Shown one piece after another: positions 17,001 through 55,570 of a stretch of 64,000 nt of DNA. The stretch is taken from NCBI GenBank assembly GCA_030267565.1, contig BRXU01000072.1, positions 1-64,000 on the forward strand. The letters run 5' to 3'. The notes beneath the pieces are model-generated. The model did no database searches and was not told where the DNA came from. It saw nothing but the letters and a program-made list of their open reading frames with translations. This stretch comes from Pleodorina starrii (lineage: Eukaryota > Chlorophyta > Chlorophyceae > Chlamydomonadales > Volvocaceae). Numbering within the stretch: position 1 is the stretch's first letter; each line of letters opens with the position of its first letter. The translations under genes were made by a program, and so were the position numbers.

Positions 17001-20000
17001 TCATGACCGTTGCCACCAGCAGCACCCGCTCGCCGTCCTCGTAACCGAGGCTCACGTACAAGGTACCCAGTGCCAGGCTGCCGTTGGTGCTGAGGATGGG
17101 GAAGGACAGGGACGCACCCGGGTCGGCCTGGGCGGGGGGCTGGCCCAGACACTGGCACTCGCCTGCAGGGACGCGGCGGAGAGTTCGGTGTTGCTCAAGT
17201 GGTTAGTAGGAGTGTAAAGATATTATTCAGGAAAGGTGATATATTTCAGGAAAGCCTTGTGACTGATTCAGTCAGGTCAAAGAGTCCGTAGGCGGGAAAG
17301 GGCGAGGGGCTCATACAAAAGATCGCTGGCGGCAGGAAGTCGGCGCCATTCAGGCAGCAGAGGTGAGTCAGTGTCGTACCTCCAGGGTTGTAGACTGGCG
17401 GAGGGGGCGGGGGCGCGGGGGATGGTGGCGGGGGTGAGGGCGGTCGTGGCGAGGGTGGCGATGGCACGCCGGGCGGCTTGGGGCAGCCCAGCGGGCAGGG
17501 GCAGCTGGCGCAGGTGATCCCCAGCTGGAGGGTGCTGATACAGGCGTTGGCGCCGCCGGCGGCGCGATTGCCACCCCAGAGGGTCATCTGGGGACGGGTT
17601 GAAGGGCGGTGGGGCGTATTAGGATGGTGGGGCTTAGCGGCGCCCCAAACATGGAGTTCTTTGATGGTTTCTATGTTGAGCTGTTCACATTATTTATATT
17701 TATATAATTTGGGTTCCTGAGGTTGTACACATTTTAACCCTCTCGTCTGCCCTCTGAAGCTCAACCACCGTGCGACAGCAACCGTATGACGGCCATTGTC
17801 TAACCATGCAACAAACCATAGAATGGAGCCATAAAAGCCAGCCCCGTACCGTATCAGGTATCCCTCCCCCCCATCCCGGAAGGTCCCCTCCCGGCCCCCT
17901 GGTCGCACCCACCATGTTGCCCGCCGAGTCCGTGACGTTGACGGCCATGCGCGAGTAGACAGTTACGGAGTTGGCCCTTCCCCCGTCGCAGCTGGCGGCA
18001 GCTGGCACAGGCCCAACCACCACCTCCACGGTTCCGTTGACACCGCTGGCACTGTTGGGCCAGGTCGACACAGTGCTCCCAGTCGGGCAGGCGCCGGCGA
18101 GCACATTCCCGACGGGCATCGTGACCCGGATGTTGGGCCCGGGTGCCGCGTATCTCATTCCCGGAGGCAGCGTCACAGCCAACTTGAAGTGGGTTGTGTT
18201 CACCATTGACATGGTCACACTGCCTAGGGCGGTGCCGTTGAGGCTGTAGAGGCGCACCGCGGGGTTGGCGGTGGGGTTGGGGCAGCGCAGCGTGGAAGTG
18301 GACTGCAGCAGCTGGCGCCCGGACGAGGGGAGCAGCAGGCCTGCGTGAGGAATGGAGGGGGAAGGCGTGATTGTAGTCCGAATGGAGGGGAGAGGAGGGT
18401 TCGTCAGACGACTCAATGTGCGTGGGGTCGGCATGATCGGCATTGCTCGCTTCGAAGCTTTGCACATGCATGCCCGGCATGACAGGAATGGAACAACAGG
18501 CAACCAACAGCGGATGCAGGAACAGAACAAGCAACCCAGAATCGGGCGCAGTAATCGGAAATGCGAACGGGAACGAGGGCATGCCACACATGACTCACCC
18601 CCGTCCTCGCTACCGCCAGCCAGGTCGCCGTCCCCCACCACATCAAGCGGGTCGCCGTCCTGCGCCGGCCGAGGATGTTAACAGAAATTGTTTTTTCTGG
18701 ACGCGGCGGGCACATTTTGTTTGGAAAGCTGAGCACGGACAGACGAAACAAGGGCACCACGCAGAGCAGGTGCGCTCCAAAGGAGGTCATTGCTTCCATT
18801 GCAATCAATTGCGCAATCATGCATTCACCGCCGGAAGGGGGGTTTCGCAAGTGGCGCAATGGGCTGCAGCAGCTGTGCTGCTGCTGTGCGTGGTGTAATG
18901 CGGCTGTGATACGAGCTGGTGATTGGGAGCGGCTGTGTTGCCCGGCTAACACATGTCCGGCCGGCTAGCGGATGGAGGGCCTGAGCGCGGAGGGCCGCGG
19001 TGATGGGCGGCTCACCTGCTCCTGCACAGCAGACAGCAGCTTGCGGCGATCAGCGGAGAACTTGGACTCCGTCATCTTAGCCGCGTCCTCCAGACCCTTC
19101 CGCGGATCCTGCTCAAGCAAAAGGGAAGGGGCATTCCGGGCGATTGTAAGTGTAATACCCGGAAGTGCCCTGGAATGTGAACTAAAGCCGTTACCATGTT
19201 GACGTGACACGCTGTGACGTGGTATTTCTGCCAATGCTACAGGGCCCGCGGCCCGACAGGTTGGCAAGCATCAAGGCGCCGCCCAAACGCTTCCCCACCT
19301 TCTCTTTCCCCACAGGCGACCGGTACAGGCGACCGGTACCCACACAAGTGCAACACGCAGATGCAGTGTCAAAGTATTCCGTAAAACCTCACACATCATG
19401 CTCGACACTGCTGTTCCAGTCTGCCGCCACATGCCGCCTGGGTAATAAGCCCCTCCGTCCCTTCCGTCCTTACCTTGAGTCGGGCGCCCACAGACACGGT
19501 GTTGACATCGTCTCGTCCCTTGGATGTGACTCTGCAGCTGCTCGCCTTCGTGCGGTGCAGCATGTAGTCACACAGCGGGGTAAGGCGAGTCTGCTCATAC
19601 CAGGCGTCCGCATCCTCCTCAATCTCAAAGAGCATGCTGACGGATATCGAGACAACACCGGTCTTGGTGTTGTTGGAAACAATCTGAAGGCACCAGGAGA
19701 GGCCCGCAGGAAAGATGGTGAAAGAGAAGGAAACAGGACAGAGTACCGAGGCTAAGCAGCGCAAAGAAAACAAAACCGATGATCACATTATTTTCAGAAA
19801 GAGCGAGGGACGGCGGCTTCAGCACGCAGTTGCCACGCACCGCGCTGGAGCTAACCCCTCAACCTCTAGTGCCTCTAGCAGCACTGCCAAAGGTATATAT
19901 ACCGACATGAGAATCAGTAGGCACAACATGGCATGGTACTTACGATACATACATGCAAGAGATTGTAACTGAGCGCTCGCAGAAGGCAAAGGGACAGCAG

Positions 20001-20531
20001 TCGCATTTAACACCAGGGGCCGCAACTGGCCGCAACGATCGAACCCGCCTTTCTCATCGACGCAACCGCGCCAACAGCGAATGCGACAGAACGGAAAATC
20101 CTCACCGAAAAATTTGCCTCGTCAAGAAGCTTTGCGGCCTCCTCGGCGGTCTTCCAGCCCCGGCTTGCCGGCACCGCTGCTGGAGAGTTCGCCTCGACAC
20201 CGCGGCCTGCTCCTGTATGTCAGTGGAAAAAGATGTTTAATTGTTATTAATTATTTTTTGTGCAATAATAGCGTGAGAGTCCGAAAGGAAAGAACCCGAG
20301 CCGCCGGGATGCGAAGGGCGCAGCTTACACATGTCCAGCTGCTGGGTTTCTCGCAACCGAAAGCACGCATACATTAGCCGATGCATGCAACAAGTTATCG
20401 CTGATGATATAATTTGTGTTATTTTTTTAAATAATCGCAAGCTCCTTGTTTGCATGACGGCACGTACCATAAATGCCCGCTATCGCAAGCAGGAGCAGCG
20501 CCCGGAAGAGGGCTAACGGGCCCGCCATCAT
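11046..20531 (-). CDS. Gene A: secreted polyproline-rod glycoprotein, frameshifted as assembled
   Basis: Thirteen exons, read downward: 20531-20468, 20212-20106, 19683-19474, 19108-19016, 18659-18599, 18340-17913, 17587-17380, 17162-16738, 16591-16422, 16258-12247, 12140-11985, 11765-11500, 11354-11046. Every junction is GT-AG and all phases agree except across exon 10. The start MMAGPLALFRALLLLAIAG is a signal peptide; an in-frame upstream ATG (20,684) would bury it. Then come an alpha/beta-looking domain (exons 2-4), an acidic Gly/Asp linker (exon 5), Cys-rich domain 1 (exons 6-7), Cys-rich domain 2 (exons 8-9), the polyproline rod (exon 10), Cys-rich domain 3 (exons 11-13) and a Pro/His/Arg tail. 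Exon 10 is 4,012 nt, where 2 modulo 3 is required. A 2-nt excess in a G-run near 13,764-13,777 switches the rod into an Arg/His/Pro frame and puts domain 3 out of frame. This is either a pseudogenising change or an assembly error. Corrected, the product would be about 2,168 residues. Likely role: extracellular matrix or cell wall. Confidence 0.8.
12250..16225 (-). repeat. Rod array of gene A: 39-bp units coding 13 prolines
   Basis: About 4 kb in which the coding (minus) strand is almost only C and G with scattered A. The predominant 39-bp unit contains CCG, CCC, CCA and one CCT codon, all proline. The CCA triplet block and the single CCT mark each unit. Units are highly uniform apart from single-base variants (a CCA block replaced by CCC or CCG). 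The 5' edge is less regular and includes the only Trp (W-P-P-S) near 16,115. A run of about 23 G occurs near 14,906-14,928. The array ends at the 3' edge with Pro-Pro-Gly-Thr and the donor GTAGGT. Confidence 0.9.
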
Positions 20532-28020: not shown

Positions 28021-28040
28021 ATTATATTTCTATTCTATAT

Positions 28041-28185
28041 ATTATTATATTATATTATATTATATTATATTATATTATATTATATTATATTATATTATAT
28101 TATATTATATTATATTATATTATATTATATTATATTATATTATATTATATTATATTATATTATATTATATTATATTATATTATAT
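28041..28185. repeat. (TATAT)n microsatellite
   Basis: About 29 uninterrupted copies of the pentanucleotide TATAT. It is absent from the matching place in unit 1, where a (TA)n tract occurs instead. Confidence 0.95.
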
Positions 28186-34142: not shown

Positions 34143-35387
34143 TCAGCCGCGGACGCGATCCGAAGCGGGCTGACGCGGCGGATGCGGGCGCCGCGGCGGG
34201 TGCGGCTGACGTGGCGGATGCGAGCTCCGCGGCGGGTGCGGCTGACGTGGCGGGCGTGGCGGGCTGGGCGGCGTGGTCGGGTTGCGCGGCTGCAGCGGCG
34301 GGTTCGGCTGCCGCGGCGGCTGCGAGGGTGGCGAGGGCGGCAACATGTTGTCGCACTGGCAGCACTCGAGGCTGAAGTCCATGACGTTCCGTGACGGCTC
34401 GGTCCCGGGGCGGTTGTACACGTTGTCAGCGTACTGGTATGGAGCGCAGGCCTGAGAGTGTGGGAAGGGGTGTGAAGGTGGGCGGGGCGGCGGGGGATGG
34501 GTGTTGGTGGGTGTGTGCACGCATGTGGTTACACGGCGTGGTGTCGGATGGGCAGGGCACGTGCACAATTTACCTAGAGCTCCATTTACGATTAGTTTCA
34601 AGATGACGTACCTCGTCAGCCACGAAGAGCTCGTCCCAAACTCGCACGTACTGACGGAAGCCGTTGTCGTACGGGCACTGCACGATGTCGGGATTGATGA
34701 CAAACTCGACTGCGGCAGCGTTGCCACTGACAGCGCACTCCTCCTGGGCCTCCTGCACCCACTCGCGCAGTGGTACGGATTGCACCTCGTCCATGTGCTC
34801 CAGAACCGAGCGCTTGTTTGGCAGGCTGTACGGCGTGCCGGAAACCGATGCGCCGCTCATGTCCCGGAAGTAGAATCCTGCCAGAGGGTGGCGGTGGGAA
34901 CCGGCAGTTTACCGTTATGTTGACCGTTATGATAAACGAAGTTGAAAACCATGCAGTTACCAAGTGAGCTCCTAAAGGACACCGCCAACAGTCAACTAAA
35001 TTGATATGTCAACGCAACCGGTAAGTAACATTACAGTTCGAGAACCCATAGGGGGGCAGGTGCTTGGCAAGCGTATGGAGGTGGTAATCTTACTGTACCT
35101 GCATCCAGCTTGTTTGCAATGACAAGACGTGGCGCTGTCTGGCCGGTGACGTCATTGTGGATGTAGACATCGGTCTTGCCAACGACTGTGCCGTTGAGAA
35201 GCTTGGTATCGAATGACAGTTGCACCTGGTTGTGGTTGAGGCACAGGCAGCGGGCTGCGAAGGCCAACATGAAGGACGATGGGGGGGAGGCAGAATTCAG
35301 GGGGGGTTCAAAATGAGGGTCCGGACGGACAGAAGAGAGAGCCATGCGCATTGCAACCTACCCGTGCCAGGCGGCGGCGGCGGTGGT

Positions 35388-35432
<45 letters not shown>

Positions 35433-38400
35433 GGCGGCGGGGGCGGCGGCGGCGGTGGTGGTGGGGGCGGCGGCGGGGGCGGCGGCGGCGGTGGTGGTGG
35501 GGGCGGCGGCGGGGGCGGCGGCGGCGGTGGTGGTGGGGGCGGCGGCGGGGGCGGCGGCGGCGGTGGTGGTGGGGGCGGCGGCGGGGGCGGCGGCGGCGGT
35601 GGTGGTGGGGGCGGCGGCGGGGGCGGCGGCGGCGGTGGTGGTGGGGGCGGCGGCGGGGGCGGCGGGGGCGGAGGTGGCGGGGGCGGGGGCGGGGGCGGAG
35701 GGGGCGGCGGCGGGGGGGGGGGGGGCGGTGGGGGGGGCGGGGGCGGGGGCGGTGGTGGCGGCGGCGGCGGCGGGGGCGGAGGTGGTGGCGGCGGCGGCGG
35801 GGGCGGAGGTGGTGGCGGCGGCGGCGGGGGCGGAGGTGGTGGCGGCGGCGGCGGGGGCGGAGGTGGTGGCGGCGGCGGCGGGGGCGGAGGTGGTGGCGGC
35901 GGCGGCGGGGGCGGAGGTGGTGGCGGCGGCGGCGGGGGCGGAGGTGGAGGCGGCGGCGGCGGGGGGGGAGGGGGGGGCGGCGGCGGCGGGGGCGGAGGTG
36001 GTGGGCGGCGGCGGCGGGGGCGGAGGTGGTGGCGGCGGCGGCGGGGGCGGTGGTGGTGGCGGGGGGGGGGGGGGCGGAGGTGGTGGCGGCGGCGGCGGGG
36101 GCGGAGGTGGTGGCGGCGGCGGCGGGGGCGGAGGTGGTGGCGGCGGCGGCGGGGGCGGAGGTGGTGGCGGCGGCGGCGGGGCGAGGCGCGGCGGGGCGGA
36201 GGTGGTGGCGGCGGCGGCGGGGGCGGTGGTGTTGGCGGCGGCGGCGGGGGCGGAGGTGGTGGCGGCGGCGGCGGGGGCGGAGGTGGTGGCGGCGGCGGCG
36301 GGGGCGGAGGTGGTGGCGGCGGCGGCGGGGGCGGAGGTGGTGGCGGCGGCGGCGGGGGCGGAGGTGGTGGCGGCGGCGGCGGGGGCGGAGGGGGTGGCGG
36401 CGGCGGCGGGGGCGGTGGTGGTGGCGGCGGCGGCGGGGGCGGAGGTGGTGGCGGCGGCGGCGGGGGCGGAGGGTGGTGGCGGCGGCGGCGGGGGCGGAGG
36501 TGGTGGCGGCGGCGGCGGGGGCGGAGGTGGTGGCGGCGGCGGCGGGGGTGGTGGCGGCGGCGGCGGGGGCGGAGGTGGTGGCGGCGGCGGCGGGGGCGGA
36601 GGTGGTGGCGGCGGCGGCGGGGGCGGAGGTGGTGGCGGCGGCGGCGGGGGCGGAGGGTGCGGTGGCGGCGGTGGCGCGGGCGGCGGGGGCGGCGGTGGTG
36701 GCGGCGGCGGCGGGGGCGGAGGTGGTGGCGGCGGCGGCGGGGGCGGAGGTGGTGGCGGCGGCGGCGGGGGCGGAGGTGGTGGCGGCGGCGGCGGGGGCGG
36801 AGGTGGTGGCGGCGGCGGCGGGGGCGGAGGTGGTGGCGGCGGCGGCGGGGGCGGAGGTGGGGGCGGCGGCGGCGGGGGCGGAGGTGGTGGCGGCGGCGGC
36901 GGGGGCGGAGGTGGTGGCGGCGGCGGAGGGGGCGGCGTGGGTGGCGGCGGCGGCGGGGGCGGAGGAGGTGGCGGCGGCGGCGGGGGCGGAGGTGGTGCGG
37001 CGGCGGCGGGCGAGGTGGTGGCGGCGCGCGGGGCGGAGGTGGTGGCGGCGGCGGCGGGGGCGGAGGTGGTGGCGGCGGCGGCGGGGGCGGAGGTGGTGGC
37101 GGCGGCGGCGGGGGCGGAGGTGGGGGCGGCGGCGGCGGGGGGGGTGGGGGGGGGGGCGGCGGCGGGGGCGGCGGCGGCGGTGGTGGTGGGGGCGGCGGCG
37201 GGGGCGGCGGCGGCGGTGGTGGTGGGGGCGGCGGCGGGGGCGGCGGCGGTGGTGGTGGTGGGGGCGGCGGCGGGGGCGGCGGCGGGTGGTGGGGGTGGGG
37301 GCGGCGGCGGGGGCGGCGGCCGGCGGTGGTGGTGGGGCGGCGGCGGGGGCGCGGCGGCGGTGGTGGTGGGGCGGCGGCGGGGGCGGCGGCGGCGGTGGTG
37401 GTGGGGGCGGCGGCGGGGGCGGCGGCGGTGGTGGTGGTGGGGGCGGCGGCGGGGGCGGCGGCGGCGGTGGTGGGTGGGGGCGGCGGCGGGGGCGGGCGGC
37501 GGCGGTGGTGGTGGGGCGGCGGCGGGGGCGGCGGGCGGGGGCGGCGGCGGCGGTGGTGGTGGGGGCGGCGGCGGCGGTGGTGGTGGGGGCGGCGGCGGGG
37601 GCGGCGGCGGCGGTGGTGGTGGGGGCGGCGGCGGGGGCGGCGGCGGCGGTGGTGGTGGGGGCGGCGGCGGGGGCGGCGGCGGCGGTGGTGGTGGGGGCGG
37701 CGGCGGGGGCGGCGGCGGCGGTGGTGGTGGGGGCGGCGGCGGGGGCGGCGGCGGTGGTGGTGGTGGGGGCGGCGGCGGCGGCGGCGGCGGCGGTGGTGGT
37801 GGGGGCGGCGGCGGCGGTGGTGGTGGGGGCGGCGGCGGGGGCGGCGGCGGCGGTGGTGGTGGGGGCGGCGGCGGCGGTGGTGGTGGGGGCGGCGGCGGGG
37901 GCGGCGGCGCCGGCGGCGGTGGGGGCGGCGGGGGGGGCGGCGGCGGCGGTGGTGGTGGGGGCGGCGGCGGGGGCGGCGGCGGCGGTGGTGGTGGGGGCGG
38001 CGGCGGGGGCGGCGGCGGCGGTGGTGGTGGGGGCGGCGGCGGGGGCGGCGGCGGCGGTGGTGGTGGGGGCGGCGGCGGGGGCGGCGGCGGCGGTGGTGGT
38101 GGGGGCGGCGGCGGTGGCGGCGGCGGCGGTGGTGGTGGGGGCGGCGGCGGGGGCGGCGGCGGTGGTGGTGGTGGGGGCGGCGGCGGGGGCGGCGGCGGCG
38201 GTGGTGGTGGGGGCGGCGGCGGGGGCGGCGGCGCCGCGGGGGGGGGGGGCGGCGGCGGGGGCGGCGGCGGGGGCGGCGGCGGCGGTGGTGGTGGGGGGCG
38301 GCGGCGGCGGTGGTGGTGGGGGCGGCGGCGGGGGCGGCGGCGGCGGTGGTGGTGGGGGCGGCGGCGGGGGCGGCGGCGGCGGTGGTGGTGGGGGCGGCGG

Positions 38401-41400
38401 CGGGGGAGTCGGCGGCGGTGGTGGTGGGGGCGGCGGCGGGGGCGGCGGCGGCGGAGGTGGTGGGGGCGGCGGAGGGGGCGGCGGCGGCGGTGGTGGGGGC
38501 GGCGGCGGCGGGGGAGGCGGCGGCGGGGGGGGGGGCGGCGGCGGCGGTGGTGGTGGGGGCGGCGGCGGGGGCGGCGGCGGCGGTGGTGGTGGGGCGGCGG
38601 CGGGGGCGGCGGCGGCGGTGGTGGTGGGGGCGGCGGCGGGGGCGGCGGCGGCGGCGGTGGTGGTGGGGGCGGCGGCGGGGGCGGCGGCGGCGGCGGCGGC
38701 GGTGGTGGTGGGGGCGGCGGCGGCGGTGGTGGTGGCGGCGGCGGCGGGGGCGGCGGCGGCGGTGGTGGTGGGGGCGGCGGCGGGGGCGGCGGCGGCGGTG
38801 GTGGTGGGGGCGGCGGCGGGGGCGGCGGCGGCGGTGGTGGTGGGGGCGGCGGCGGGGGCGGCGGCGGCGGTGGTGGTGGGGGCGGCGGCGGGGGCGGCGG
38901 CGGCGGTGGTGGTGGGGGCGGCGGCGGGGGCGGCGGCGGCGGTGGTGGTGGGGGCGGCGGCGGCGGTGGTGGTGGCGGCGGCGGCGGGGGCGGCGGCGGC
39001 GGTGGTGGTGGGGGCGGCGGCGGGGGCGGCGGCGGCGGTGGTGGTGGGGGCGGCGGCGGGGGCGGCGGCGGCGGTGGTGGTGGGGGCGGCGGCGGGGGCG
39101 GCGGCGGCGGTGGTGGTGGGGGCGGCGGCGGGGGCGGCGGCGGGGGCGGCGGCGGCGGTGGTGGTGGGGGCGGCGGCGGGGGCGGCGGCGGCGGTGGTGG
39201 TGGGGCGGCGGCGGCGGTGGTGGTGGGGGCGGCGGCGGGGGCGGCGGCGGCGGTGGTGGTGGGGGCGGCGGCGGGGGCGGCGGCGGCGGTGGTGGTGGGG
39301 GGCGGCGGCGGGGGCGGCGGCGGCGGTGGTGGTGGGGGCGGCGGCGGGGGCGGCGGCGGCGGTGGTGGTGGGGGCGGCGGCGGGGGCGGCGGCGGCGGTG
39401 GTGGTGGGGGCGGCGGCGGGGGCGGCGGCGGCGGTGGTGGTGGGGGGCGGCGGCGGCGTGGTGGTGGGGGCGGCGGCGGGGGCGGCGGGGGCGGCGGCGG
39501 CGGTGGTGGTGGGGGCGGCGGCGGGGGGCGGCGGCGGCGGTGGTGGTGGGGGCGGCGGCGGGGGCGGCGGCGGCGGTGGTGGTGGGGGCGGCGGCGGGGG
39601 CGGCGGCGGCGGTGGTGGTGGGGGCGGCGGCGGGGCGGCGGCGGCGGTGGTGGTGGGGGCGGCGGCGGGGGCGGCGGCACCGGTGGTGGTGGGGGCGGCG
39701 GCGGGGGCGGCGGCGGTGGTGGTGGTGGGGGCGGCGGCGGGGGCGGCGGCGGCGGTGGTGGTGGGGGCGGCGGCGGGGGCGGCGGCGGCGGTGGTGGTGG
39801 GGGCGGCGGCGGGGGCGGCGGCGGCGGTGGTGGTGGGGGCGGCGGCGGGGGCGGCGGCGGCGGTGGTGGTGGGGGCGGCGGCGGGGGCGGCGGCGGCGGT
39901 GGTGGTGGGGGCGGCGGCGGGGGCGGCGGCGGCGGTGGTGGTGGGGGCGGCGGCGGGGCCGGCGGCGGCGGTGGTGGTGGGGGCGGCGGCGGTGGCAGCG
40001 GCGGGGCGGCGTGGGCGGCGGGGGTGGGGGCGGCGGCGGGGGCGGCGGCGGCGGTGGGGGTGGGGGGGGGGGGGGCGGGGGTGGTGGGGCAGGCGGCGGG
40101 GGCGGCGGCGGCGGGGGCGGCGGCGGCGGTGGTGGTGGGGGGCGGCGGCGGGGGCGGCGGCGGCGGTGGTGGTGGGGGCGGCGGCGGGGGCGGCGGCGGC
40201 GGTGGTGGTGGTGGGGGCGGCGGCGGGGGCGGCGGCGGCGGTGGTGGTGGGGGTGGCGGCGGGGGCGGCGGCGGCGGTGGTGGTGGGGGCGGCGGCGGGG
40301 GCGGCGGCGGCGGTGGTGGTGGGGGCGGCGGCGGAGGAGGTGGGGGCGGCGGCGGGGGCGGCGGCGGCGGGGGGGGTGGGGGCGGTGGTGGTGGGGGCGG
40401 CGGCGGGGGCGGCGGCGGCGGTGGTGGTGGGGGCGGCGGCGGGGGCGGCGGCGGCGGTGGTGGTGGGGGCGGCGGCGGGGGCGGCGGCGGCGGTGGTGGT
40501 GGGGGCGGCGGCGGGGGCGGAGGCGGGGGTGGTGGTGGGGGGGGCGGGGGGGGCGGCGGCGGCGGTGGTGGTGGGGGCGGCGGCGGGGGCGGCGGCGGCG
40601 GTGGTGGTGGGGGCGGCGGCGGGGGCGGCGGCGGCGGTGGTAGTGGGGGCGGCGGCGGGGGCGGCGGCGGTGGTGGTGGTGGGGGCGGCGGCGGGGGCGG
40701 CGGCGGTGGTGGTGGTGGGGGCGGCGGCGGGGGCGGCGGCGGCGGTGGTGGTGGGGGCGGCGGCGGGGGCGGCGGCGGCGGTGGTGGTGGGGGCGGCGGC
40801 GGGGGCGGCGGCGGCGGTGGTGGTGGGGGCGGCGGCGGGGGCGGCGGCGGCGGTGGTGGTGGGGGCGGCGGCGGGGGCGGCGGCGGCGGTGGTGGTGGGG
40901 GCGGCGGCGGGGGCGGCGGCGGCGGTGGTGGTGGGGGCGGCGGCGGGGGCGGTGGTGGGGGGGGCGGCGGCGGGGGCGGCGGCGGGGGCGGCGGCGGCGG
41001 GGGTGGTGGGGGCGGCGGCGGGGGCGGCGGCGGCGGGGGCGGTGGGGGCGGGGGCGGCGGTGGTGGTGGGGGCGGCGGGGGGGGCGGCGGCGGCGGGGGC
41101 GGCGGCGGCGGGGGTGGGGGGGGCGGCGGCGGGGGCGGCGGCGGCGGTGGTGGTGGGGGCGGCGGCGGGGGCGGCGGCGGCGGTGGTGGTGGGGGCGGCG
41201 GCGGGGGCGGCGGCGGCGGTGGTGGTGGGGGCGGCGGCGGGGGCGGCGGCGGCGGTGGTGGTGGGGGCGGCGGCGGGGGCGGCGGCGGCGGTGGTGGTGG
41301 GGGCGGCGGCGGGGGCGGCGGCGGCGGTGGTGGTGGGGGCGGCGGCGGGGGCGGCGGCGGCGGTGGTGGTGGGGGCGGCGGCGGGGGCGGCGGCGGCGGT

Positions 41401-44400
41401 GGTGGTGGGGGCGGCGGCGGGGGCGGCGGCGGCGGTGGTGGTGGGGGCGGCGGCGGGGGCGGCGGCGGCGGTGGTGGTGGGGGCGGCGGCGGGGGCGGCG
41501 GCGGCGGTGGTGGTGGGGGCGGCGGCGGGGGCGGCGGCGGCGGTGGTGGTGGGGGGCGGCGGCGGCGGCGGTGGTGGTGGGGGCGGCGGCGGGGGCGGCG
41601 GCGGCGGTGGTGGTGGGGGCGGCGGCGGGGGGGGCGGCGGCGGTGGTGGTGGGGGCGGCGGCGGGGGCGGCGGCGGCGGTGGTGGTGGGGGCGGCGGCGG
41701 GGGCGGCGGCGGCGGTGGTGGTGGGGGCGGCGGCGGGGGCGGCGGCGGCGGTGGTGGTGGGGGCGGCGGCGGGGGCGGCGGCGGCGGTGGTGGTGGGGGC
41801 GGCGGCGGGGGCGGCGGCGGCGGTGGTGGTGGGGGCGGCGGCGGGGGCGGCGGCGGGGGCGGCGGCGGCGGTGGTGGTGGGGGCGGCGGCGGGGGCGGCG
41901 GCGGCGGCGGTGGTGGGGGCGGCGGCGGCGGTGGTGGTGGGGGCGGCGGCGGGGGCGGCGGCGGCGGTGGTGGTGGGGGCGGCGGCGGGGGCGGCGGCGG
42001 CGGTGGTGGTGGGGGCGGCGGCGGGGGCGGCGGCGGCGGTGGTGGTGGGGGCGGCGGCGGGGGCGGCGGCGGCGGTGGTGGTGGGGGCGGCGGCGGGGGC
42101 GGCGGCGGCGGTGGTGGTGGGGGCGGCGGCGGGGGCGGCGGCGGGGGCGGCGGCGGCGGTGGTGGTGGGGGCGGCGGCGGGGGCTGCGGCGGCGGTGGTG
42201 GTGGGGGCGGCGGCGGCGGTGGTGGTGGGGGCGGCGGCGGGGGCGGCGGCGGCGGGGGCGGCGGCGGCGGCGGGGGTGGGGGCGGCGGCGGGGCCGGCGG
42301 CGGCGGAGGTGGGGGGGGCGGCGGGGGGGGCGGCGGCGGCGGTGGTGGTGGGGGCGGCGGCGGGGGCGGCGGCGGCGGTGGTGGTGGGGGTGGCGGCGGC
42401 GGGCGGCGGCGGCGGTGGTGGTGGGGGCGGCGGCGGGGGCGGCGGCGGCGGTGGTGGTGGGGGCGGCGGCGGGTGCGGCGGCGGCGGTGGTGGTGGGGGG
42501 CGGCGGCGGGGGCGGCGGCGGCGGTGGTGGTGGGGGCGGCGGCGGGGGCGGCGGCGGCGGTGGTGGTGGGGGCGGCGGCGGGGGCGGCGGCGGCGGTGGT
42601 GGTGGGGGCGGCGGCGGGGGCGGCGGCGGCGGTGGTGGTGGGGGCGGCGGCGGGGGCGGCGGCGGCGGTGGTGGTGGGGGCGGCGGCGGGGGCGGCGGCG
42701 GCGGTGGTGGTGGGGGCGGCGGCGGGGGCGGCGGCGGCGGTGGTGGTGGGGGCGGCGGCGGGGGCGGCGGCGGCGGGGTGGTGGGGGCGGCGGCGGGTGC
42801 GGCGGCGGCGGTGGTGGTGGGGGCGGCGGCGGGGGCGGCGGCGGCGGTGGTGGTGGGGGCGGCGGCGGGGGCGGCGGCGGCGGTGGTGGTGGGGGCGGCG
42901 GCGGGGGCGGCGGCGGCGGTGGTGGTGGGGGCGGCGGCGGGGGGCGGCGGCGGCGGTGGTGGTGGGGGCGGCGGCGGGGGCGGCGGCGGCGGTGGTAGGT
43001 GGGGGCGGCGGCGGGGGCGGCGGCGGTGGTGGTGGTGGGGGCGGCGGCGGGGGCGGCGGCGGCGGTGGTGGTGGGGGCGGCGGCGGGGCGGCGGCGGCGC
43101 GGCGGCGGTGGTGGTGGGGGCGGCGGCGGGGGCGGCGGCGGCGGTGGTGGTGGGGGCGGCGGGGCGGCGGCGGTGGTGGTGGGGCGGCGGCGGGGGCGGC
43201 GCGCGGGGGCGGCTGGCGGCGGCGGTGGTGGTGGGGGCGGCGGCGGGGGCGGCGGCGGCGGTGGTGGTGGGGGCGGCGGCGGGGGCGGCGGCGGCGGTGG
43301 TGGTGGGGGCGGCGGCGGGGGCGGCGGCGGCGGTGGTGGTGGGGGCGGCGGCGGGGGCGGCGGCGGCGGTGGTGGTGGGGGGCGGCGGCGGGGGGCGGCG
43401 GCGGCGGTGGTGGTGGGGGCGGCGGCGGGGGCGGCGGCGGCGGTGGTGGTGGGGGCGGCGGCGGGGGCGGCGGGCGGCGGTGGTGGTGGGGGGCGGCGGC
43501 GGGGGCGGCGGCGGCGGTGGTGGTGGGGGCGGCGGCGGGGGCGGCGGCGGCGGTGGTGGTGGGGGCGGCGGCGGGGGCGGCGGCGGCGGTGGTGGTGGGG
43601 GCGGCGGCGGGGGCGGCGGCGGCGGTGGTGGTGGTGGGGGCGGCGGCGGGGGCGGCGGCGGCGGTGGTGGTGGGGGCGGCGGCGGGGGCGGCGGCGGCGG
43701 TGGTGGTGGGGGCGGCGGCGGGGGCGGCGGCGGCGGTGGTGGTGGGGGCGGCGGCGGGGGCGGCGGCGGCGGTGGTGGTGGGGGCGGCGGCGGGGGGCGG
43801 CGGCGGCGGTGGTGGTGGGGGCGGCGGCGGGGGCGGCGGCGGCGGTGGTGGTGGGGGCGGCGGCGGGGGCGGCGGCGGCGGTGGTGGTGGGGGCGGCGGC
43901 GGGGGCGGCGGCGGCGGTGGTGGTGGGGGCGGCGGCGGGGGCGGCGGCGGCGGTGGTGGTGGGGGGCGGCGGCGGGGGCGGCGGCGGTGGTGGTGGTGGG
44001 GGCGGCGGCGGGGGCGGCGGCGGCGTGGTGGTGGGGGGCGGCGGCGGGGGGCGGCGGCGGCGGTGGTGGTGGGGGCGGCGGCGGGGGCGGCGGCGGCGGT
44101 GGTGGTGGGGGCGGGGGCGGCGGCGGTGGTGGTGGGGGCGGCGGCGGGGGGCGGCGGCGGCGGTGGTGGTGGGGGCGGCGGCGGGGGCGGCGGCGGCGGT
44201 GGTGGTGGTGGGGGGCGGCGGCGGGGGCGGCGGCGGCGGTGGTGGTGGTGGCGGCGGCGGGGGCGGCGGCGGGGGTGGGGGGGGGGGCGGCGGCGGGGGC
44301 GGCGGCGGCGGTGGTGGTGGGGGGCGGCGGCGGGGGCGGCGGCGGCGGTGGTGGTGGGGGCGGCGGCGGGGGCGGCGGCGGCGGTGGTGGTGGGGGCGGC

Positions 44401-47400
44401 GGCGGGGGCGGCGGCGGCGGTGGTGGTGGGGGCGGCGGCGGGGGCGGCGGCGGCGGTGGTGGTGGGGGCGGCGGCGGGGGCGGCGGCGGCGGTGGTGGTG
44501 GGGGCGGCGGCGGGGGCGGCGGGCGGCGGTGGTGGTGGGGGCGGCGGCGGGGGCGGCGGCGGCGGTGGTGGTGGGGGCGGCGGCGGGGGCGGCGGCGGCT
44601 GGTGGTGGTGGGGGCGGCGGCGGGGGCGGCGGCGGCGGTGGTGGTGGGGGCGGCGGCGGGGGCGGCGGCGGCGGTGGTGGTGGGGGCGGCGGCGGGGGCG
44701 GCGGCGGCGGTGGTGGTGGGGGCGGCGGCGGGGGGGCGGCGGCGGCGGTGGTGGTGGGGGCGGCGGCGGGGGCGGCGGCGGCGGTGGTGGTGGGGGGCGG
44801 CGGCGGGTGGTGGCGGGCGGCGGCGGTGGTGGGCGGCGGCGGCGGGGGCGGCGGCGGCGGTGGTGGTGGGGGCGGCGGCGGGGGCGGCGGCGGCGGTGGT
44901 GGTGGGGGCGGCGGCGGGGGCGGCGGCGGCGGTGGTGGTGGGGGCGGCGGCGGGGGGCGGCGGCGGCGGTGGTGGTGGGGGGCGGCGGCGGGGGCGGCGG
45001 CGGCGGTGGGTGGTGGGGGAGGCGGTGGGGGCGGCGGCGGCGGTGGTGGTGGGGGGGGGGGCGGCGGCGGTGGTGGTGGGGGCGGCGGCGGGGCGGCGCG
45101 GCGTGGGGGGGCGGGGGCGGCGGCGGGGGTGGCGGCGGCGGCGGGGGCGGCGGCGGCGGTGGTGGTGGGGGCGGCGGCGGGGGCGGCGGCGGCGGTGGTG
45201 GTGGGGGCGGCGGCGGGGGCGGCGGCGGCGGTGGTGGTGGGGGCGGCGGCGGGGGCGGCGGCGGCGGTGGTGGTGGGGGCGGCGGCGGGGGCGGCGGCGG
45301 CGGTGGTGGTGGGGGCGGCGGCGGGGGCGGCGGCGGCGGTGGTGGTGGGGGCGGCGGCGGGGGCGGCGGCGGCGGTGGTGGTGGGGGCGGCGGCGGGGGC
45401 GGCGGCGGCGGGTGTGGGGGCGGCGGCGGTGGGCGGCGGCGCGGCGGTCGGTGGTGGGGGGCGGCGGCGGGGGCGGCGGCGGCGGTGGTGGTGGGGGCGG
45501 CGGCGGGGGCGGCGGCGGCGGTGGTGGTGGGGGCGGCGGCGGGGGCGGCGGCGGTGGTGGTGGTGGGGGCGGCGGCGGGGGCGGCGGCGGCGGTGGTGGT
45601 GGGGGCGGCGGCGGGGGCGGCGGCGGCGGTGGTGGTGGGGGCGGCGGCGGGGGCGGCGGCGGCGGTGGTGGTGGGGGCGGCGGCGGGCTTGGTGGCGGGG
45701 GCGGCGGCGGCGGTGGTGGTGGGGGCGGCGGCGGGGGCGGCGGCGGCGGTGGTGGTGGGGCGGCGGCGGCGGTGGTGGTGGGGGCGGCGGCGGGGCGGCG
45801 GCGGCGGGGGCGGCGGCGGCGGTGGTGGTGGGGGCGGCGGCGGGGGCGGCGGCGGCGGGTGGTGGTGGGGGCGGCGGCGGGGGCGGCGGCGGCGGTGGTG
45901 GTGGGGGCGGCGGCGGGGGCGGCGGCGGCGGTGGTGGTGGGGGTGGCGGCGGGGGCGGCGGCGGCGGGGGTGGTGGGGGCGGCGGCGGGGGCGGCGGCGG
46001 CGGGGGTGGTGGGGGCGGCGGCGGGGGTGGTGGGGGCGGCGGCGGGGGCGGCGGCGGCGGCGGGGGCGGGCGGCGGTGGTGGTGGGGGCGGCGGCGGGGG
46101 CGGCGGCGGCGGTGGTGGTGGGGGCGGCGGCGGGGGCGGCGGCGGCGGTGGTGGTGGGGGCGGCGGCGGGGGCGGCGGCGGCGGTGGTGGTGGGGGCGGC
46201 GGCGGGGGCGGCGGCGGCGGTGGTGGTGGGGGCGGCGGCGGGGGCGGCGGCGGCGGTGGTGGTGGGGGCGGCGGCGGGGGCGGCGGCGGCGGTGGTGGTG
46301 GGGGCGGCGGCGGGGGCGGCGGCGGCGGTGGTGGTGGGGGCGGCGGCGGGGGGCGGCGGCGGCGGTGGTGGTGGGGGCGGCGGCGGGGGCGGCGGCGGCG
46401 GTGGTGGTGGGGGCGGCGGCGGGGGCGGCGGCGGCGGTGGTGGTGGGGGCGGCGGCGGGGGCGGCGGCGGCGGTGGTGGTGGGGGCGGCGGCGGGGGCGG
46501 CGGCGGCGGTGGGGGGGGGGGCGGCGGCGGGGGCGGCGGCGGCGGGTGTTGGGGCGGCGGCGGGGGCGGCGGCGGCGGTGGTGGTGGGGGCGGCGGCGGG
46601 GGCGGCGGCGGCGGTGGTGGTGGGGGCGGCGGCGGGGGCGGCGGCGGCGGTGGTGGTGGGGGCGGCGGCGGGGGCGGCGGCGGCGGGGGTGGTGGGGGCG
46701 GCGGAGGGGGCGGCGGCGCGGTGGTGGTGGGGGCGGCGGCGGGGGCGGCGGCGGCGGTGGTGGTGGGGGCGGCGGCGGGGGCGGCGGCGGCGGTGGTGGT
46801 GGGGGCGGCGGCGGGGGCGGCGGCGGCCGGTGGTGGTGGGGGCGGCGGCGGGGGGCGGCGGCGGCGGTGGTGGTGGGGGCGGCGGCGGGGGCGGCGGCGG
46901 CGGTGGTGGTGGGGGCGGCGGCGGGGGCGGCGGAGGCGGTGGAGGTGGCGGCGGCGGCGGGGCCGGCGGCGGCGGTGGTGGTGGGGGCGGCGGCGGTGGG
47001 GCGGCGGCGGCGGTGGTGGTGGGGGCGGCGGCGGGGGCGGCGGCGGCGGTGGTGGTGGGGGCGGCGGCGGGGGCGGCGGCGGCGGTGGTGGTGGGGGCGG
47101 CGGCGGGGGCGGCGGCGGCGGTGGTGGTGGGGGCGGCGGCGGGGGCGGCGGCGGCGGTGGTGGTGGGGGGCGGCGGCGGGGGCGGCGGCGGCGGTGGTGG
47201 TGGGGGCGGCGGCGGGGGCGGCGGCGGCGGTGGTGGTGGGGGCGGCGGCGGGGGCGGCGGCGGCGGTGGTGGTGGGGGCGGCGGCGGGGGCGGCGGCGGC
47301 GGTGGTGGTGGGGGCGGCGGCGGGGGCGGCGGCGGCGGTGGTGGTGGGGGCGGCGGCGGCGGCGGCGGCGGCGGTGGTGGTGGGGGCGGCGGCGGCGGCG

Positions 47401-50400
47401 GCGGCGGCGGTGGTGGTGGGGGCGGCGGCGGGGGCGGCGGCGGCGGTGGTGGTGGGGGCGGCGGCGGGGGCGGCGGCGGCGGTGGTGGTGGGGGCGGCGG
47501 CGGGGGCGGCGGCGGCGGTGGTGGTGGGGGCGGCGGCGGGGGCGGCGGCGGCGGTGGTGGTGGGGGCGGCGGCGGGGGCGGCGGCGGCGGTGGTGGTGGG
47601 GGCGGCGGCGGGGGCGGCGGCGGCGGGTGGTGGTGGGGGCGGCGGCGGGGGGCGGCGGCGGCGGTGGTGGTGGGGGCGGCGGCGGGGGCGGCGGCGGCGG
47701 GGGTGGCGCGGCGGGGGCGGCGGCGGGGGCGGCGGCGGCGGCGGGGGTGGTGGGGGCGGCGGCGGGGGAGGCGGGGGGGGGGGTGGTGGGGGCGGCGGCG
47801 GGGGCGGCGGCGGCGGGTGGTGGTGGGGGCGGCGGCGGGGGCGGCGGCGGCGGGTGGTGGTGGGGGCGGCGGCGGGGGCGGCGGCGGCGGGGTGGTGGTG
47901 GGGGCGGCGGCGGGGGCGGCGGCGGCGGTGGTGGTGGGGGCGGCGGCGGGGGCGGCGGCGGCGGTGGTGGTGGGGGCGGCGGCGGGGGCGGCGGCGGCGG
48001 TGGTGGTGGGGGCGGCGGCGGGGGCGGCGGCGGCGGTGGTGGTGGGGGCGGCGGCGGGGGCGGCGGCGGCGGTGGTGGTGGGGGCGGCGGCGGGGGCGGC
48101 GGCGGCGGTGGTGGTGGGGGCGGCGGCGGGGGCGGCGGCGGCGGGGGTGGGGGGGGCGGCGGCGGCGGCGGCGGCGGCGGGGGTGGTGGGGGCGGCGGCG
48201 GGGGCGGCGGCGGCGGTGGTGGTGGGGGGGCGGCGGCGGGGGCGGCGGCGGCGGTGGTGGTGGGGGCGGCGGCGGGGGCGGCGGCGGCGGTGGTGGTGGG
48301 GGCGGCGGCGGGGGCGGCGGCGGCGGTGGTGGTGGGGGCGGCGGCGGGGGCGGCGGCGGCGGTGGTGGTGGGGGCGGCGGCGGGGGCGGCGACGGCGGTG
48401 GTGGTGGGGGCGGCGGCGGGGGCGGCGGCGGCGGGGGGGGTGGGGGCGGCGGCGGGGGCGGCGGCGGCGGGGGTGGTGGGGGCGGCGGCGGGGGCGGCGG
48501 CGGCGGTGGTGGTGGGGGCGGCGGCGGGGGCGGCGGCGGCGGTGGTGGTGGGGGCGGCGGCGGGGCGGCGGCGGCGGGGGTGGTGGGGGCGGCGGCGGGG
48601 GCGGCGGCGGCGGGGGTGGTGGGGGCGGCGGCGGGGGCGGCGGCGGCGGTGGTGGTGGGGGCGGCGGCGGGGGCGGCGGCGGCGGAGGTGGTGGGGGCGG
48701 CGGCGGGGGCGGCGGCGCCGGGGGTGGTGGGGGCGGCGGCGGGGGCGGCGGCGGGGGTGGTGGTGGGGGCGGCGGCGGGGGGCGGCGGCGGCGGTGGTGG
48801 TGGGGGCGGCGGCGGGGGCGGCGGCGGCGGTGGTGGTGGGGGCGGCGGCGGGGGCGGCGGCGGCGGTGGTGGTGGGGGCGGCGGCGGGGGCGGCGGCGGC
48901 GGTGGTGGTGGGGGCGGCGGCGGGGGCGGCGGCGGCGGGGGTGGTGGGGGGCGGCGGCGGGGGCGGCGGCGGGCGGTGGTGGTGGGGGCGGCGGCGGGGG
49001 CGGCGGCGGCGGTGGTGGTGGGGGCGGCGGCGGGGGCGGCGGCGGCGGTGGTGGTGGGGGCGGCGGCGGGGGCGGCGGCGGCGGTGGTGGTGGTGGGGGC
49101 GGCGGCGGGGGCGGCGGCGGCGGTGGTGGTGGGGGCGGCGGCGGGGGCGGCGGCGGCGGTGGTGGTGGGGGCGGCGGCGGGGGCGGCGGCGGCGGTGGTG
49201 GTGGGGGCGGCGGCGGGGGCGGCGGCGGCGGTGGTGGTGGGGGCGGCGGCGGGGGCGGCGGCGGCGGTGGTGGTGGGGGCGGCGGCGGGGGCGGCGGCGG
49301 CGGTGGTGGTGGGGGCGGCGGCGGGGGCGGCGGCGGCGGTGGTGGTGGGGGCGGCGGCGGGGGCGGCGGCGGCGGTGGTGGTGGGGGCGGCGGCGGGGGC
49401 GGCGGCGGCGGTGGTGGTGGGGGCGGCGGCGGGGGCGGCGGCGGCGGTGGTGGTGGGGGCGGCGGCGGGGGCGGCGGCGGCGGTGGTGGTGGGAGGCGGC
49501 GGCGGGGGCGGCGGCGGCGGTGGTGGTGGGGCGGCGGCGGGGGCGGCGGCGGCGGTGGTGGTGGGGGCGGCGGCGGGGCCGGCGGGCGGCGGTGGTGGTG
49601 GGGGCGGGGCGGCGACGGCGGCGGCGGTGGTGGTGGGGGCGCGGCGGGGCGGCGGCGGCGGGGGTGGTGCGGGGGCGGCGGCGGGGGCGCGGCGGCGGTG
49701 GTGGTGGGGGCGGCGGCGGGGGCGGCGGCGGCGGTGGTGGGGGGCGGCGGCGGCGGCTCGTGGTGGTGGGGGCGGCGGCGGGGGGGCGGCGGCGGGGGCG
49801 GCGCGGCGTGGTGGTGGCGGCGGCGGCGGGGCCGGCGGCGGCGGTGGTGGTGGTGGCGGCGGCGGGGGCGGCGGCGGCGGTGGTGGTGGGGGGCGGCGGC
49901 GGGGGCGGCGGCGGCGGTGGTGGTGGGGGCGGCGGCGGGGCGGCGGCGGCGGCGGTGGTGGTGGGGGCGGCGGCGGGGGCGGCGGCGGCGGTGGTGGTGG
50001 GGGCGGCGGCGGGGGCGGCGGCGGCGGTGGTGGTGGGGGCGGCGGCGGGGGCGGCGGCGGCGGTGGTGGTGGCGGCGGCGGCGGGGCCGGCGGCGGCGGT
50101 GGTGGTGGTGGCGGCGGCGGGGGCGGCGGCGGCGGCGGTGGTGGGTGGGGGCGGCGGCGGGGGCGGCGGCGGCGGCGGTGGTGGTGGGGGCGGCGGCGGG
50201 GGCGGCGGCGGCGGTGGTGGTGGGGGCGGCGGCGGGGGCGGCGGCGGCGGTGGTGGTGGGGGCGGCGGCGGGGGCGGCGGCGGCGGTGGTGGTGGGGGCG
50301 GCGGCGGGGGCGGCGGCGGCGGTGGTGGTGGGGGCGGCGGCGGGGGCGGCGGCGGCGGTGGTGGTGGGGGCGGCGGCGGGGGCGGCGGCGGCGGTGGTGG

Positions 50401-51509
50401 TGGGGGCGGCGGCGGGGGCGGCGGCGGCGGTGGTGGTGGGGGCGGCGGCGGGGGCGGCGGCGGCGGTGGTGGTGGGGGCGGCGGCGGGGGCGGCGGCGGC
50501 GGTGGTGGGGGTGGGCGGCGGGGGCGGCGGCGGCGGCGGTGGTGGGGGAGGGGGCGGCGGCGGGGGCGGCGGCGGCGGTGGTGGTGGGGGCGGCGGCGGG
50601 GGCGGCGGCGGCGGTGGTGGTGGGGGCGGCGGCGGGGGCGGCGGCGGCGGTGGTGGTGGGGGCGGCGGCGGGGGCGGCGGCGGCGGTGGTGGTGGGGGCG
50701 GCGGCGGGGGCGGCGGCGGCGGTGGTGGTGGGGGCGGCGGCGGGGGCGGCGGCGGCGGTGGTGGTGGGGGCGGCGGCGGGGGCGGCGGCGGCGGTGGTGG
50801 TGGGGGCGGCGGCGGGGGCGGCGGCGGCGGTGGTGGTGGGGGCGGCGGCGGGGGCGGCGGCGGCGGTGGTGGTGGGGGCGGCGGCGGGGGCGGCGGCGGC
50901 GGTGGTGGTGGGGGCGGCGGCGGGGGCGGCGGCGGCGGTGGTGGTGGGGGCGGCGGCGGGGGCGGCGGCGGCGGTGGTGGTGGGGGCGGCGGCGGGGGCG
51001 GCGGCGGCGGTGGTGGGGGCGGCGGCGGCGGTGGTGGGGGAGGCGGCGGGGGCGGCGGTGGCGGTGGTGGGGGAGGCGGCGGGGGCGGCGGGGGCGGTGG
51101 GGAAGGCGGCCACGGGGGTGGTGGCGGTGGGGGTGGCGGCGGTGGCGGCGGTGGCGGTGGAGGTGGCGGCGGTGGTGGCGGCGGTGGAGGTGGGGGTGGA
51201 GGCGTCGGTGGGGTCGGGGTTGGAGGCGGGCTTGGGCAAGGCTCACTATTACAGGGGGGGGGGGAGGGGGGGGGGGACCTTATGTTGCGTGGAGTTTCAT
51301 GCAAGGTTAGATCGAGGTTATTATTTGTTCACTGGTATAATTCCGGGGGGGGAGAGGATTGGGGCCAAAAATATTTGGACAGCAAAGGGTTCATGCAAGG
51401 TTAGGTCGACCTGCCTGGTAGTACTTATCCCGGATTTGGTCGCGGCCAATGTTCTATGCAAGGACGAGGGACTCACCTTGGCGGTGCGGGCGGCGGGGGC
51501 GGTGGAGGC

Positions 51510-54500: not shown

Positions 54501-55570
54501 CCTTCCGTCCGTACCCTGAGTCGGAAGCCCACAGATACGGTGTTGGCCTCGTCTCGTCCCTTGGATGTGACTCTGCAGCTGCTCGCTTTCGTGCGGCGCA
54601 GCATGTAGTCACACAGCGGGGTAAGACGAGTCTGCTCATACCAGGCGTCCGCATCCTCCTCAATCTCAAAGAGCATGCTGACGGATATCGAGACAATGCC
54701 GGTCTTGGTGTTGTTGGAAACAATCTGAAGGCATCAGGAAAGGCCCGCAGGAAAGATGGTGGAAGAGAAGGAAACAGGACAGAGTACCGATGCCAAGCAG
54801 CGCAATGACAACAAACCCGATGGTCACATTGTTCTCAGAAAGAGCGAGGGACAGCAGTTGCCACGCACCGCGCTGGAGCTAACCCCTCAACCTCTAGTGC
54901 CTCTAGCAGCACTGCCTAGGGACATTATTAATACAGACATGAGAATCAGTAGGGACAACATGGCACGGTACATACAATACATACAGGCAGACGGATTCTA
55001 ACTAAGCGCCCGCAGAAGGCAAAGGGACAGCAGTCGCATCGGCAGCGATAGATAGTAAACGGCACCAGGGGACGCATAGGGCCGCAACGAACCCGCCGTT
55101 CGCATCGACGTAACCGCGCCACACAGCGAATGCGACAGAAAAGAATATCTCACCGAAAAGTTTGCCTCGTCAAGAAGCTTTGCAGCCTCCTCGGCGGTCT
55201 TCCAGCCCCGGCTTGCCGTCACCGCTGCTGGAGAGTTCGCCTCGACGCCGCGGCCTGCTCCTGTATGTCAGTAAAAAAATATGTTTGACTCTTATTACTT
55301 GCATTTTTTTGCAATAATAGCGTGAGAGACCAGAAGGAAAGGACCCGAGCTGCCGGGATGCGAAGGGCACAGCTTGCACATGTCCAGCTGGGTTTCTCGC
55401 AATCCAAAGCACGCATTAGCCGATGCATGCAACAAGTTATCGCTGATGATATAATTTGTGTTGATTTTTGAAATAGTCGCAAGCTCCTTGCTTGCATGAC
55501 GGCCCGTACCATTGATGCCCGCTATCGCAAGCAGGAGCAGCGCCCAGAAGAGGGCTAATGGGCCCGCCAT
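34143..55570 (-). CDS. Gene B: giant secreted polyproline-rod glycoprotein (6,125 codons)
   Basis: Thirteen exons: 55570-55510, 55260-55154, 54724-54515, 54154-54062, 53715-53655, 53383-52956, 52686-52479, 52324-51900, 51646-51477, 51245-35362, 35254-35099, 34877-34612, 34451-34143. All junctions are GT-AG and all phases agree, so the CDS is open throughout (18,378 nt with stop). Residues 1-20 are a signal peptide (MAGPLALFWALLLLAIAG). Residues 30-157 form an alpha/beta-looking domain ('TGIVSISVSMLFEIEEDADA', 'DPRKGLEDAAKMTESKF'), and 158-178 an acidic linker. Cys-rich domain 1 is about 190-350, a Ser/Pro linker 351-386, Cys-rich domain 2 390-567, the rod 568-5,881, Cys-rich domain 3 5,883-6,056, and the tail is rich in Pro, His and Arg. 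N-glycosylation sites (NGT, NTT, NVT) cluster in domain 1. The layout resembles volvocine matrix glycoproteins such as pherophorins or sexual agglutinins, but the domains do not show the classical pherophorin signature I know. Confidence 0.85.
35365..51225 (-). repeat. Rod array of gene B: 15.9-kb single-exon polyproline array
   Basis: Exon 10 is 15,884 nt, nearly all repeat. From about 37,140 to 51,000 the predominant unit is 36 bp, coding 12 prolines (seven CCG, two CCC, three CCA). At 35,760-37,130 it is 27 bp (nine codons, with a CCT), and at 35,440-35,700 it is again 36 bp. The repeat has almost no T on the coding strand, so no stop codon arises in any frame. Numerous units deviate by one or two bases in G-runs. 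These move the proline frame into frames reading Ala4-Pro-Ala3-Pro-Thr3 or Arg/His/Pro, and back. The first and last blocks are both in the proline frame, and total length is 2 modulo 3, as the flanking intron phases require. The 5' edge (SEPCPSPPPTPTPP) and 3' edge (PPGT) match gene A. Confidence 0.9.

Follow-up and report, generated by a model that had tools for sequence, protein, structure and literature searches.

MST3, the axial protein of the mastigonemes of Chlamydomonas reinhardtii, has 8,572 residues and carries 42 proline repeats over ~800 nm; it is proposed that its repetitive poly(hydroxyproline) region extends over ~0.8 micrometre and determines how long the filament is, and a 429-residue proline-rich N-terminal stretch measures 146 nm against 133 nm expected (PMC11015965). 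By the same account, native long poly(hydroxyproline) helices have become structurally visible just recently, and MST3 suggests a role for them as rulers (PMC11015965). The mean rod length of pherophorins is given as 89 amino acids (aa) for Volvox carteri and as 181 aa for C. reinhardtii (PMC9818292). Here, we analyze gene B of the volvocine alga Pleodorina starrii, whose exon 10 is a tandem array of 15,884 nucleotides (nt). The gene lies in a window of 64,000 nt, positions 1-64000 of contig C72 (BRXU01000072.1), to which coordinates refer unless another contig is named; it was compared with a genome of 136,057,477 bp in 95 contigs. We find that exon 10 belongs to a proline-rod gene and is a genuine coding exon. 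Gene B probably encodes a secreted polyproline-rod protein that belongs to an extracellular matrix (ECM)-type family, and its array, as assembled, probably carries consensus indel errors.

The array exon of gene B

Gene B lies on the minus strand and comprises 13 exons, with its start codon (ATG) at 55570 and its stop codon at 34143. All introns are GT-AG and all phases fit, and the conceptual protein has 6,125 or 6,128 aa, depending on which of two possible donors of exon 1 is used. By eye, and from its sequence only, exon 1 encodes a hydrophobic N-terminal stretch that resembles a signal peptide. The exons are as follows.

55501..55570, minus strand: exon 1, with the ATG at 55570 and a donor after 61 or 70 nt
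55260-55154, 54724-54515, 54154-54062 and 53715-53655, minus strand: exons 2-5, N-terminal region, no Pfam match
53383-52956 and 52686-52479, minus strand: exons 6-7, region X1 followed by a short Ser-Pro/polyPro linker, no Pfam match
52324-51900 and 51646-51477, minus strand: exons 8-9, region X2 followed by a run of 17 Pro
35362..51245, minus strand: exon 10, tandem array with a dominant 36-bp unit that is 12 Pro codons in the local frame
35254-35099, 34877-34612 and 34451-34143 (including the stop), minus strand: exons 11-13, region X3 and a Pro/Arg/His-rich tail

The borders of exon 10 read CTGTAATAG / TGAGCC and GCACGG / GTAGGT (slashes mark the splice borders), and the same splice borders delimit the array exon in the paralogues gene A, C30b, and C42. 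This phase-consistent 13-exon model bears out the coordinates, GT-AG borders, length, and position of exon 10 that had been proposed in a sequence-only reading of the window.

In a frame that consists of CCN codons throughout, every run of C has a length of 2 modulo 3 unless a non-Pro codon or an indel intervenes. Of the 4,376 C-runs in exon 10, 151 depart from this length, and a Viterbi reading switches the proline frame 71 to 72 times (72 to 73 runs; the indexing differs between two readings). From 5' to 3', the numbers of frame breaks per kb are 1, 7, 4, 7, 6, 5, 9, 7, 8, 1, 0, 5, 3, 4, 2, and 2. When the exon is read in its own frame, Pro occupies 2,289 of 5,294 codons (43%) next to 1,315 Arg, 764 Ala, 558 His, and 316 Thr, and the longest Pro run is 212 codons. 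Thus, the proposal that exon 10, as assembled, encodes a single polyproline of ~5,300 residues is not borne out. By contrast, in local proline frames, Pro accounts for 5,111 of 5,233 codons (97.7%) with a longest run of 513, while five simulated sequences reached just 51 to 54% local Pro; local proline coding is, therefore, not an artefact of composition. The non-Pro codons in these frames number 122, some of which adjoin breaks, and include 6 Ser, in essence confirming the earlier description of a serine-free core. The first proline run extends over 242 codons, and the first and last runs are both in the exon's frame, for which the chance expectation is one in three.

Two features to which the sequence-only reading had appealed turned out to carry little or no weight. 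First, the coding frame of exon 10 indeed has no internal stop. However, the coding strand contains 86 T in 15,884 nt, and in a stop-to-stop listing, all three of its frames are open (5,294 to 5,343 aa), the sole stop inside the exon being one TGA, in one frame, formed by the exon's first three bases. On the opposite strand, two frames are open for 5,345 and 5,452 aa. Among first-order Markov sequences of matched make-up, 96% (n = 200) were stop-free in three frames. The stop-free frame is, therefore, a consequence of the composition of the T-poor coding strand, and we rejected its openness as coding evidence. Second, the exon length of 2 modulo 3 matches the phases of the flanking exons but is weak evidence, because after ~70 frame steps, such a match has a chance of one in three. 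This length class is found in three of four measured paralogous exons, i.e., those of gene B, C42 (1,424 nt), and C30b (17,891 nt), and is broken by exon 10 of gene A, which is 1 modulo 3. In C-rich arrays, an open frame or a fitting phase should, thus, be regarded as no evidence, and long-read gene models that span such arrays can have the wrong frame.

Paralogues, selection, and giant exons in the same genome

The DNA encoding the C-terminal region of gene B matches at least seven genomic loci: C72 and C30 carry two each (C30a and C30b on the latter), while C19, C42, and C32 carry one each. A C-rich array directly precedes the C-terminal region in six of the seven, while C32 has C-rich stretches of 120 to 170 bp alone. 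These paralogue arrays span 1.4 to 17.9 kb. The second locus on C72 is the tandem paralogue of gene B.

11046..20528, minus strand: gene A, with counterparts of all 13 gene B exons and a synonymous divergence (dS) to gene B of ~0.08
12247..16258, minus strand: gene A exon 10, 4,012 nt, with a 39-bp unit and one proline-frame break near 13765

The main units of the two genes differ in length (36 bp in gene B and 39 bp in gene A), yet both read Pro in the exon frame beside the splice sites. The array of C42 (1,424 nt) has no break and Pro at 467 of 482 scored codons. The readable part of the C30a array, up to a donor near C30:1458517, spans ~8.5 kb with two breaks; its 3' part is a single frame of 5,079 nt (Pro at 1,676 of 1,692 codons), and this proline frame continues into the donor site. 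The C30b array spans 17.9 kb and has one break in its first 5.9 kb and 71 beyond. The 5' part of the C30a array is ~3.3 kb of near-pure C in runs of up to 211, in which the frame is unreadable, and has the look of an artefact of sequencing or gap filling. The interval that separates genes A and B holds 2.8 copies of a tandem repeat of 217 bp (21480-22087) and a tract of (ATTAT)n (28021-28185).

The region after the array, i.e., X3 encoded by exons 11-13, is under purifying selection. The ratio of nonsynonymous to synonymous change (omega) for these exons is 0.162 (B-A), 0.126 (B-C30b), 0.046 (A-C30b), 0.376 (B-C30a), and 0.387 (A-C30a), and for exons 11-12 alone, it is 0.344 in the B-C42 pair. 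Amino acid changes in exons 11-13 were fewer than expected under neutrality in the four pairs B-A, B-C30b, A-C30b, and B-C30a (binomial P 1.2e-4, 6.7e-5, 5.7e-7, and 6.4e-5). Upstream of the array, exons 2-9 have omega values of 0.184 (B-A), 0.181 (B-C30b), and 0.293 (A-C30b). Because selection acts on the region 3' of the array, translation through the array is expected, at least within the family.

Giant single-frame exons are real in this genome and span 8 to 16 kb on C13 and C3. On C13 (C13:1086707-1095244), a pherophorin gene with the domain PF12499 has an open reading frame (ORF) of 2,846 codons, 2,593 of which encode Pro; its array of 7.9 kb is a single frame with Pro at 2,557 of 2,643 codons. 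This exon is the cleanest giant polyproline exon that we found in the genome. On C3 (C3:2306608-2322870), a single-frame ORF of 5,421 codons begins with a PF12499 match and contains an eight-residue motif 201 times between residues 170 and 4,762, with a spacing of 20 residues in 175 of 200 intervals; the other two frames of the same strand have 34 and 234 stops. We considered this ORF as a polyproline array and rejected it as such, because it is a 20-residue Pro/Ser/Gly/Gln repeat. A second ORF with PF12499 (1,273 codons with a different repeat) ends 1.5 kb before it. These giant pherophorin exons make the giant scale proposed for the gene B rod plausible; however, the length of the gene B array itself rests on a noisy consensus, and C13 and C3 are better evidence for giant rods than gene B.

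Origin of the frame breaks and length of the rod

Several properties of the repeat units bear on the origin of the breaks. First, unit types that occur once are more frequent among out-of-frame units (85 of 91) than among in-frame units (58 of 80). Second, recurrent in-frame variants cluster, with 37 of 97 lying within three units of a copy of their own kind (shuffle mean 12.1, maximum 28), as expected for units spread through unequal exchange. By contrast, recurrent out-of-frame variants do not cluster (4 of 30 within three units; shuffle mean 2.4, maximum 12) in what is a low-power test. Third, of 54 units that are one token off the main unit, 27 have an extra C in a run and 13 have a third-position letter change that keeps Pro, in a class that is blind to C-run positions changed to another letter. 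Fourth, off-length C-runs make up 65 of 835 runs in the five class versus 83 of 3,512 in the two class. Fifth, the C19 array and the inner C30b array have a texture like that of unpolished long reads. In the C19 array (C19:2643701-2652691, 9 kb), 683 of 1,088 C-runs are off-length; it is noise-like and nearly C/G-only, and it precedes an X3 copy, with the end of the contig ~5 kb away. Such arrays may be a cause of contig breaks and wrong gene models. Moreover, the assembly paper of NIES-4479 describes two long-read assemblies that were merged, polished, and gap-filled with TGS-GapCloser, with quickmerge among the tools (PMC10256686). Altogether, the unit and run statistics strongly indicate consensus errors inside the exon 10 array, and we infer that most of the 71 to 72 frame breaks are most likely long-read consensus errors.

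Some observations weigh against this interpretation. In vivo slippage likewise creates indels in C-runs. The C13 array is also simple and C-rich but is unbroken in the same assembly; long simple arrays can, therefore, assemble without breaks, and some of the breaks in gene B may be real. Despite its ~72 breaks, C30b retains the exon length class of gene B, 2 modulo 3. Moreover, gene conversion from an intact copy could keep X3 conserved, even in a dead copy. Finally, the assembly paper of NIES-4479 terms the reads "high-fidelity," although the words HiFi, CCS, CLR, and subread are absent from its main text (PMC10256686).

Because the array probably carries consensus errors, the figure of 5,294 codons in the assembly serves as an estimate of rod length rather than a measurement. 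An account that overlaps with a real rod protein and an error-bearing array, and to which we give a little under an even chance, is that the array is true in-frame polyproline that was expanded or collapsed during merging and gap filling, in which case the rod may comprise anything from a few hundred up to 2,000 residues or be longer than assembled. The range of paralogue array lengths, the use of quickmerge and TGS-GapCloser (PMC10256686), and the stretches of identical 36-bp units, which give short reads no anchor, all fit this account. It is opposed by the distribution of the exact 36-bp unit, all 229 genome-wide copies of which lie inside gene B exon 10, so that reads from other loci would hardly have been mixed in, and by the single-frame exons of 8 to 16 kb on C13 and C3 in the same assembly. 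Somewhat more tentatively, exon 10 may be a one-frame exon of ~5,290 nearly pure, serine-free prolines that form one continuous rod of ~1.6 micrometres (0.31 nm per residue × 5,294 residues); the gene would be one of several in which repeat units and array lengths evolve more quickly than the conserved ends. If so, it would be the longest uninterrupted polyproline rod known to us.

An unlikely alternative is that the breaks are real. The array would then have decayed or slipped, and the ribosome would leave the proline frame after ~240 residues to make a low-complexity chain of Arg, Ala, His, Thr, and Pro, gene B being a failing duplicate that its paralogues keep similar to themselves. The content of the exon's own frame (43% Pro) and the first proline run of 242 codons are what this alternative predicts, the shorter intact copy C42 could supply the function, and C13 shows that the assembly renders a long array unbroken. 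However, the breaks do not recur in neighboring units, unlike in-frame variants; X3 of gene B has an omega of 0.13 to 0.16 relative to its closest paralogues; and non-Pro codons in the local frames are few (122 of 5,233). Low-complexity arrays do occur in introns, but that the array is a non-coding C-rich satellite (e.g., a quadruplex-forming one) in an intron, with exon 9 joined to exon 11 in the mRNA, is highly improbable because skipping of exon 10 puts exons 11-13, and with them the conserved X3, out of frame in gene B and likewise in C42, because four arrays (B, A, the C30a 3' part, and C42) have CCN codons in the frame of the exon, either next to the splice sites or over their whole length, and because the 4 GT and 7 AG dinucleotides in exon 10 offer little substrate for splicing within the exon.

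Protein regions and comparison with known systems

The regions that flank the rod contain 8 Cys each (X1, 174 aa; X2, 178 aa; X3, 177 aa). Despite their like size and Cys number, mutual homology between them is unsupported (hhalign probability 0.4 to 1.3%). In the gene B pieces scanned, with the linker, array, and tail outside the scan, no Pfam family scored above cut-off, and X3 had one sub-threshold ApeP-like match (E 0.12). PF12499 had no match at E up to 1 in the first 364 aa of gene B or in four other pieces of it. A genome scan with this family, in which 150 of 306 candidates were scored, gave at least 157 matches, and no place on C72 is among those listed. A sequence search of the PDB with X2 gave no match, and the structure predicted for exon 8 from a two-row alignment (99% identity) has a mean predicted local distance difference test (pLDDT) score of 34. 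A first protein search, in which 7,983 candidates chosen mostly by shared proline words were scored, returned eight matches, i.e., one Volvox reticuliferus pherophorin-domain protein, six SecD-type proteins, and one other, which we took as composition matches. Searches with residues 25-355 and with a gene B query that retained the runs of 17 Pro gave no match among candidate proteins of ~490 to 1,560 aa. In the open-licence literature, nothing was found about these genes, including under Pleodorina starrii with pherophorin, and the part of PMC4218817 consulted holds nothing on volvocine prolines.

We suggest that the gene family, with at least seven loci, six of them with an adjacent array, encodes ECM-type proteins with Cys-containing regions at both ends and a polyproline rod between, and that the rod corresponds to one exon, in which CCN codons form a tandem array that evolves fast. 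Translation in the living alga would very probably keep to one proline frame across the array, from exon 9 through exon 11, yielding X3. The signal-like N-terminus suggests that the gene B product is secreted; its prolines would be hydroxylated and glycosylated, giving a stiff polyproline-II rod whose length would be governed by the number of repeats. The most likely role of such a rod would be to serve in the colony matrix as a strut or spacer that links two anchoring ends. A volvocine proline-rod gene whose N-terminus resembles a secretion signal is supported, while the "adhesion spear" of the sequence-only reading is unsupported. If repeat number sets rod length in this family, over a range of 474 to perhaps several thousand codons, the family would provide a test of rod length against ECM shape in a colonial alga, and it would allow one to ask how ribosomes manage thousands of consecutive prolines.

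Among described proteins, MST3 is the closest precedent for gene B, to judge by the portion of its description used here; both would be giant algal proteins with a long, repetitive proline rod. However, MST3 has P13...P11(XXP)3 repeats with non-Pro spacers, while gene B has 36-bp all-Pro units; repeats of the MST3 type, P13-Yn-P11-(XXP)3, were not seen in the main units of gene B, which are uninterrupted CCN, no motif-specific search having been made. MST3 also has C-type lectin domains and a PKD2-like membrane domain, while gene B has no Pfam match, including none to a PKD2-like membrane domain, in the pieces scanned. Pherophorins, as described in the part of the source used here, share with the predicted layout of gene B Cys-containing regions that flank a proline-rich rod and a rod length that is highly variable among paralogues (PMC9818292); they carry PF12499, of which the gene B pieces have no match. 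The C13 pherophorin and gene B both have a giant polyproline exon, but that of C13 comes with PF12499 and one unbroken frame. Thus, in its predicted layout of X1 and X2, array, and X3, gene B resembles a pherophorin, while by domain no such assignment is made. Altogether, gene B would be of a known kind, that of the hydroxyproline-rich rods exemplified by MST3, and an extreme variant of it.

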